Shown: one piece after another, positions 40,830 to 42,719 of the stretch | How the letters are laid out: each line of letters begins with the position of its first letter | How positions within the stretch are numbered: position 1 is the first letter of the stretch | NCBI RefSeq assembly: GCF_000143965.1 | Contig: NC_014365.1 | Location: 1,701,501-1,765,500, forward strand | Source of the DNA: Desulfarculus baarsii DSM 2075 | Lineage (GTDB): Bacteria; Desulfobacterota; Desulfarculia; Desulfarculales; Desulfarculaceae | DNA: 64,000 bases | Reading direction: 5' to 3' | The notes under the pieces: generated by a model | Database searches by the model: none | What the model was told of the DNA's origin: nothing | The model's input: the letters and a program-made list of their open reading frames with translations, nothing else | Made by a program: the position numbers and the translations under genes

Positions 40830-41030
40830 ATGGACGATTGGATCCTTAAAGTCGGCGCGGGCCGAACAACGGCCCGTAACCGGGGTGCGCGCCAAAAAGT
40901 CGCCATGGCCGGGCAGGACATCTATAAGAATTTACCGGCACCGGGGAGTGACGTCAAACAGGCCCCGGCGCGACCTCGTAAAAAAACGAATCGGCGGCCG
41001 GCGGGCGATATGGCCCAGTTCGAGAGTGCT

Positions 41031-41229
41031 GCACGGGGGCGTCCTACCCCGTGCGGCATCAGCTTGGCAAAAGCGCGGTTTTGCCAAGCCTCACGAATCG
41101 CTCGCCTGATCAGGCTCGCGATTTGGCGCGCCGTCCATGGCGCGCTTCGGCTGCTGCACGGTAGAATTCATGTTTCACAGGTTATTATCTGTTTTTACAA
41201 CATTTGTTATGTTTCACCGTGCAGCAGCC
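41031..41229. repeat. Array of five consecutive perfect hairpins
   Basis: In order: GCACGGGG/CCCCGTGC (41031-41054); GCTTGGCAAAA/TTTTGCCAAGC (41062-41089); AATCGC and GCGATT around GCCTGATCAGGC (41096-41123); GCGCGCC/GGCGCGC (41126-41145); and GGCTGCTGCACGGT (41149-41162) with its exact complement at 41216-41229, 53 bases apart. The right arm lies in the codons just after the HELG of a truncated gene. No transposase or reverse transcriptase is adjacent. It could be a small non-autonomous mobile element, an attachment or recombination site, or a structured RNA. Confidence 0.6.
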
Positions 41230-41563
41230 CCAGTTCGTGGATCAGCGTCGAGGCGTCGCCATATTTGAGGATTTGGATCACGGCCTGGCCGTCGGGCGGA
41301 AAATGCACCGCCCCGCGCTTTCGCGCGTTTTGGCCGGTTTGCAGGTAGGTTTTCCCGCCCCGGGCCTTGATTCCGGCCAGCAGGTCTTTTAAACTGATTT
41401 CAGTGCCTGACGTGGAGTGTGCCCATCCGGCCCCCTGGGGTCGGCCCGGTACATGCGTTCCGTCAGGCACTTCTTTTTCCAGCTTGGCGTCATAGGCGCT
41501 GGGCGCGACACAACTGACAGCCACGACGCGCTCTTGTTGCCGGAAGATGAGTGACGGCGGCAA
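41207..41563 (-). pseudogene. Truncated zincin-like protein fragment
   Basis: An open frame of 118 codons. Its second half, from ISLKDLLAGIKARGGKTYLQ through FPPDGQAVIQILKYGDASTL to IHELG, looks like the metalloprotease segment of large phage or plasmid polyvalent proteins, where the motif continues HELGH and a long C-terminus. Here it breaks immediately after HELG and stops within eleven codons, exactly where the hairpin array begins. The N-terminal third is probably not coding. Interpreted as a remnant cut by an insertion or deletion. Confidence 0.35.
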
Positions 41564-42419: not shown

Positions 42420-42478
42420 TGTGCTTTGCCACGCGAAACGCAAAAATCTGTCAAACGAAACGCAAAAACCGGCGTGGC
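42420..42478. repeat. Direct repeat copy 1, Mu-end-like
   Basis: A 59-bp unit starting TGTG, then GCCACGC, two copies of CGAAACGCAAAAA separated by TCTGTCAAA, and ending GCGTGGC, so the unit is also bracketed by a GCCACGC/GCGTGGC inverted repeat. It is nearly identical to the unit at 42661 (five differences, four in the bases just after TGTG). Paired CGAAA-containing blocks next to a 5' TG resemble MuA-type transposase sites at phage Mu ends. Alternatively a dispersed host repeat. Confidence 0.6.
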
Positions 42479-42660: not shown

Positions 42661-42719
42661 TGTGAGCCGCCACGCGAAACGCAAAAATCTGTCAAACGAA
42701 ACGCAAAAACCAGCGTGGC
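42661..42719. repeat. Direct repeat copy 2, Mu-end-like
   Basis: Second 59-bp unit, with the same order of TGTG, GCCACGC, two CGAAACGCAAAAA blocks and GCGTGGC. It ends four bases from the stop codon of the last phage gene, which is where the right end of a Mu-type prophage would be expected. Confidence 0.6.

Follow-up and report, generated by a model that had tools for sequence, protein, structure and literature searches.

MITEs are usually regarded as gutted insertion sequences with junk interiors, and MITEs with IS5-type ends are an already known kind. Among the named examples, QMITE1 and QMITE2 of Coxiella burnetii have been reported to yield small RNAs (available text of PMC10969869), and Chunjie of Geobacter uraniireducens is described in the same text as a 235-bp MITE. 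A different set of known systems is defined by the RNA regulator CsrA. Its sites present GGA in a hairpin loop, as an ANGGAN hexaloop (PMC7652899), and the CsrA/RsmE binding consensus is CANGGANG (PMC6849547). The feature described here lies in the window (the whole stretch of 64,000 nucleotides that was analysed) and is a non-autonomous, gene-less MITE inserted in a gene remnant (Table 1). We hold it very probable that MITE identity, an IS5-type origin and a conserved folded core apply jointly to this element.

Table 1. Positions of the element, its hairpins and the interrupted reading frame in the window.
Feature	Position	Strand	Basis
Complete MITE copy, 210 bp, hairpins A–E in this orientation	41022–41231	+	own-genome copies, aligned boundaries
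Left target-site duplication, AGTTC	41017–41021	.	identical to 41232–41236
Right target-site duplication, AGTTC	41232–41236	.	identical to 41017–41021
Left terminal inverted repeat (TIR), GAGAGTGCTGCACGG	41022–41036	+	pattern search, copy alignment
Right TIR, GGGGCTGCTGCACGG in the window copy (consensus GAGGCYGCTGCACGG)	41217–41231	-	copy alignment, pattern
Hairpin A, holds most of the left TIR; loop TCC (GGA on the minus strand)	41026–41059	+	fold
Hairpin B (TTGGCAAAA...TTTTGCCAA)	41062–41089	+	inverted repeats, fold, covariation
Hairpin C	41094–41125	+	inverted repeats, fold, covariation
Hairpin D, minus-strand loop AUGGAC	41126–41145	+	fold, loop tally, covariation
Hairpin E, 14-bp perfect inverted repeat, holds most of the right TIR	41149–41229	+	inverted repeats, fold
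Gene remnant that reads ...STLIHEL up to the element; part of a putative zincin	41237–41563	-	ORF list and PHROG; no Pfam or NCBIfam match
Opposite flank of the same interrupted frame	40932–41016	-	ORF 40932–41087 and sequence

The preliminary description of this locus had proposed an array of five hairpins at 41031–41563. The five hairpins are present, and the array folds with an energy of -114.4 kcal/mol (z = -9.4), a value reached by none of 200 shuffled sequences. The extent had to be corrected: the element is confined to the 210 bp listed in Table 1, and the part of the interval beyond the right target-site duplication belongs to the adjoining minus-strand gene remnant. The perfect inverted repeat of 14 bp (41149–41162 / 41216–41229) that was said to bound the array is real, but it forms the stem of hairpin E, within which the right TIR also lies, and is not a separate boundary. 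A search of Rfam 15 left the element unmatched at E = 1, and a known structured RNA was ruled out on that basis.

The genome of the window (a single contig of 3,655,731 bases, in which the window spans 1701501–1765500) holds 26 further full or partial copies, about 27 in total. The matches of these 26 copies were confined to the first ~200 bases of the region used as query, and the long copies were 91–97% identical to the window copy. Their alignment yielded imperfect TIRs (GAGAGTGCTGCACGG / GAGGCYGCTGCACGG). Perfect 5-bp target duplications were found for 25 of the 29 own-genome elements having both ends, AGTTC on both sides in the window copy, and the sequence of this 5-bp flank varied from site to site. 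The TIRs, the perfect target duplication and the copy number together establish transposition. They bear out the earlier proposal of a small structured element inserted into an older gene, for which further copies and target-site duplications were the suggested tests; a single copy without flanking duplication, named there as the contrary outcome, was not what we found. A single-copy relic or deletion scar was ruled out as well by the ~27 copies with their target duplications. At 210 bp, the element is too short to encode a transposase. Shortened forms of 172, 137, 46, 42, and 41 bp occurred among the 29 elements scored, those of 41–46 bp containing little beyond two TIRs that enclose a short loop. 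Five loci carry such 41–46-bp elements (L055, L056, L057, L071, and L072), four of them with perfect 5-bp target duplications; these elements are very small mobile units. The window element was unmatched among the PLSDB plasmids, which gave no sign of plasmid spread. A second small repeat is present in the window at 42427–42474 and 42671–42718, a near-identical pair (CCACGCGAAACGCAAAAATCTGTCAAACGAAACGCAAAAACC..GCGTGG) about 240 bp apart whose ends are able to pair.

The element adjoins the HELG codons of the interrupted gene, much as had been noticed before, and its last bases complete the Gly codon of the remnant. The insertion point is located inside the Glu-Leu codons of His-Glu-Leu-Gly, and Glu-Leu falls within the 5-bp target duplication. 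Read from its own copy of this duplication, the opposite flank continues as Glu-Leu-Gly-His and reaches a stop after ~25 codons. These readings fit insertion into a putative HExxH motif of a gene that was already short or decayed. Calling this gene a zincin is plausible, but the support is weak: besides the HELG motif there is one weak match in PHROG, to phrog_9880 (E = 0.0012, residues 69–112), and the remnant was unmatched in Pfam and NCBIfam. The search for intact zincin homologues, also proposed at the outset, returned none convincing. In 395 genomes of the phylum, nothing was found beyond this locus and one weak match of 33 residues in its own genome; there were no homologues in phages and no convincing ones in the PDB.

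In the genome of the window, no protein matching DDE_Tnp_1 or IS5 was found, and no autonomous partner was detected. This absence weakens the case for an element that is active here, not for a MITE. In a sister genome (G001), the MITE-like terminal sequence GAGAGTGCTGCACAG starts an element that encodes an IS5-family transposase of 345 aa. The IS5-family transposase matches NCBIfam NF033581 with 235–240 bits (cut-off of 140), as well as Pfam DDE_Tnp_1 and DUF772. Elsewhere in the family, homologous insertion sequences end in GAGGCCGATGCA- or GAGAGCAATGCA-type sequences that match the MITE ends. Insertion sequences in sister genomes are flanked by 5-bp duplications, namely TATTT (L081), CAGTT (L082), and TCATT (L085); the sole complete G001 copy had no visible target duplication. 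In another genome (G009), the MITE ends GAGACCATTGCACGG equal the ends of an insertion sequence fragment in G013, a member of the same genus. Because the transposases of sister species share such ends and 5-bp duplications, we infer that an IS5-family DDE transposase recognising GAGRSYGCTGCACGG-type ends mobilised the MITE in trans. The mobilising enzyme would then be extinct or undetected in the genome of the window.

BLAST comparison with G001, G003, and G020 gave matches limited to the middle of the element, and in these three genomes hairpins A–D are present, but the elements around them have unrelated ends. Aligning 24 cores, which came from five genera, yielded a consensus of 35 pairs. 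Double compensatory changes were seen in 19 of them, and 97.6% of the alignment cells were paired, compared with 83% in shuffles and 31–52% with slid partners; none of 500 shuffles reached this result. Covariation in palindromic DNA can, however, also come from arm-to-arm correction. Hairpins A–B–C–D are a module that keeps its fold from one species, and one phylum, to another and that occurs with more than one type of transposon end. A covariance model, the E-values of which are rough (down to 2e-18), was run on 63 genomes of the class and found the core in 10. In 395 genomes that sample the phylum evenly it found the core in 14, including four families outside the class; counts ranged from one to at least dozens of copies per genome and are lower bounds. 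A DNA pattern for hairpins C–D identified at least 120 loci in Deltaproteobacteria, Nitrospirae/Nitrospiria, Mariprofundus, Magnetococcales, and Deferrisomatales. Most of these were matched by the model along its whole length, the Mariprofundus and Magnetococcales loci being weaker (38–53 bits).

The core also occurs in other Desulfobacterota, Nitrospirae, Zetaproteobacteria, and Magnetococcales, where it usually lies between other inverted repeats and has a 4-bp CTAN duplication. Most copies from outside the Desulfarculaceae have the form CTAN-CAGG.TGTTGAAAAA ... CAACACCCTG-CTAN. Both ends could be recognised in 55 elements; in 24 of these the two 4-bp flanks agreed exactly, in almost every case as CTAA or CTAT. 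One and the same hairpin module thus travels with two or more types of ends and of duplication lengths. A search of the fetched loci for inverted TIR pairs 0.7–3.5 kb apart gave no convincing insertion sequence as autonomous partner of the CTAN-type elements. Five core elements in G001 (L015, L108, L109, L113, and L114) are flanked on both sides by near-identical hairpins of ~25–30 bp that resemble rho-independent terminators, as if the elements target terminators and duplicate them. In G004, five core matches lie in tandem with a 119-bp period (L138:1025–1628). The CTAN-type terminal sequence also occurs once in an IMG/VR viral contig (L293:6235–6254), a possible transfer vehicle.

In hairpins A and D the stems change with compensation, while the loops retain an almost unvarying plus-strand TCC, which reads as GGA on the minus strand. 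GGA was located in the loop of hairpin D in 18/18, A in 15/18, B in 0/18, and C in 1/14 distinct sequences; the 18 sequences of this tally were not chosen by the TCC pattern, but part of them were found by the covariance model, which leaves some sequence bias. The corresponding frequency in hairpin loops of shuffled sequences was 11%. The minus-strand contexts include C-AUGGAC-G, C-ACGGAC-G, and CAGGACG. Because GGA stands here in ANGGAN-like hairpin loops, loops A and D can be read as a putative CsrA/RsmE motif. The function we favour, tentatively and at less than an even chance, is that of a mobile candidate CsrA-binding RNA. The core would be transcribed as a minus-strand RNA, its ANGGAN-like hairpin loops would bind CsrA/RsmA, and transcription through the dispersed copies would titrate or recruit CsrA. 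Wobbles in the stems lean toward G.U on the minus strand (54 vs. 32, counts that are non-independent).

The csrA gene is present in the genome of the window and in 17 of 19 element-bearing genomes, being undetected in G009 and G015. The latter is 71% complete. G009 is 97% complete and rich in the element (45 matches), with an altered hairpin D. In genus g3, csrA was undetected in all eight genomes (G002, G007, G010, G012, G014, G017, G018, and G019), none of which has the element; this correlation may represent one ancestral event. Of 17 element-free genomes from outside the family that were scored for csrA, 16 lay above the cut-off and the 17th matched weakly. Several observations, among them the undetected csrA of element-rich G009, count against a CsrA role. 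Copies occur in either orientation relative to genes, with no strand preference seen in an ORF-based comparison using rough gene calls, and a fixed-strand RNA role predicts otherwise. Each element has two GGA loops, ~92 nt apart, and many stems exceed the length favoured by SELEX (PMC7652899).

The same lack of orientation preference towards genes agrees with a core that is simply the passive interior, rich in palindromes, of an ancient MITE lineage, with no function beyond transposition. Stem pairing would then be kept by template switching or by arm-to-arm conversion of imperfect palindromes, and the differing ends would have been gained by recombination or nested insertion. MITEs are often palindromic, and double changes with few intermediates agree with correction. 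Such correction leaves unexplained why TCC/GGA is conserved in loops A and D and variable loops are found in B and C, and why the order of four hairpins persists across phyla. We regard a passive body as a real possibility that still falls short of being probable, about as likely as the CsrA-binding function. The conservation of loops over covarying stems could also mean that the loops, folded as ssDNA or as RNA, are recognised by the transposition machinery or by some host protein besides CsrA, for instance to aid excision or target choice. The terminal repeats lie within hairpins A and E, and several 41–42-bp minimal elements retain a GGA-type loop between both TIRs, which suits a reader of this kind. 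IS5-family transposases, however, act on double-stranded ends, and the same loops accompany two end types and duplication lengths, which probably means that different transposases are involved. We judge this reading improbable.

The stable hairpins and the mostly intergenic positions of the copies would also suit a transcription terminator or an RNA-stability element of the REP/BIME kind, in place of a transposon. The perfect target duplications, the TIRs, and the insertion within a gene remnant contradict this assignment; moreover, no T-tract follows the hairpins of the window copy, and Rfam offers no match. It appears very unlikely on these grounds. A REP/BIME mobilised by a RAYT transposase, the mark of which is a short GTAG-type foot beside a hairpin, was not considered further, since TIRs and 5-bp duplications are the hallmark of a different mechanism.

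The interior of this element is more conserved than its ends, one hairpin module being kept across phyla while the transposon ends differ. With the covariance model, many copies that lack annotation can be labelled in Desulfobacterota, Nitrospirae, and elsewhere. If the module is functional, the candidate CsrA binding would link mobile DNA to a global RNA regulator; if it has no function, it offers a striking example of structure maintained by DNA processes alone. Either answer is informative. In the broadest version of the CsrA reading, mobile hairpin arrays spread across phyla would borrow various IS ends, carry a predicted two-loop CsrA-binding module, and seed CsrA decoys or CsrA-controlled UTRs. 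This broad version is possible but rather unlikely.

A literature search returned no account of a cross-phylum hairpin core combined with differing transposon ends and conserved protein-type loops. The CsrB/RsmZ decoy RNAs are alike in having GGA in hairpin loops, in CAGGANG / ANGGAN contexts. They carry many such loops, whereas the element has two, is mobile and dispersed, and lacks an Rfam match. QMITE1 and QMITE2 are similarly stem-loop-rich MITEs, for which the available text of PMC10969869 describes no CsrA-type loops or cross-phylum core, unlike the element presented here. Of the named elements Chunjie comes nearest; it is described (PMC10969869) as likewise a MITE, present in dozens of copies in the genome of a deltaproteobacterium, and on that description it could prove to be a relative. 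MITEs derived from the IS5 family share with our element the IS5-like terminal repeats (seen in sister genomes), a short target duplication, the lack of a gene, and multiple copies. The present element differs in that its own genome is without an autonomous copy, and in its core, a conserved four-hairpin module that is also carried, in several phyla, between different ends and CTAN duplications.
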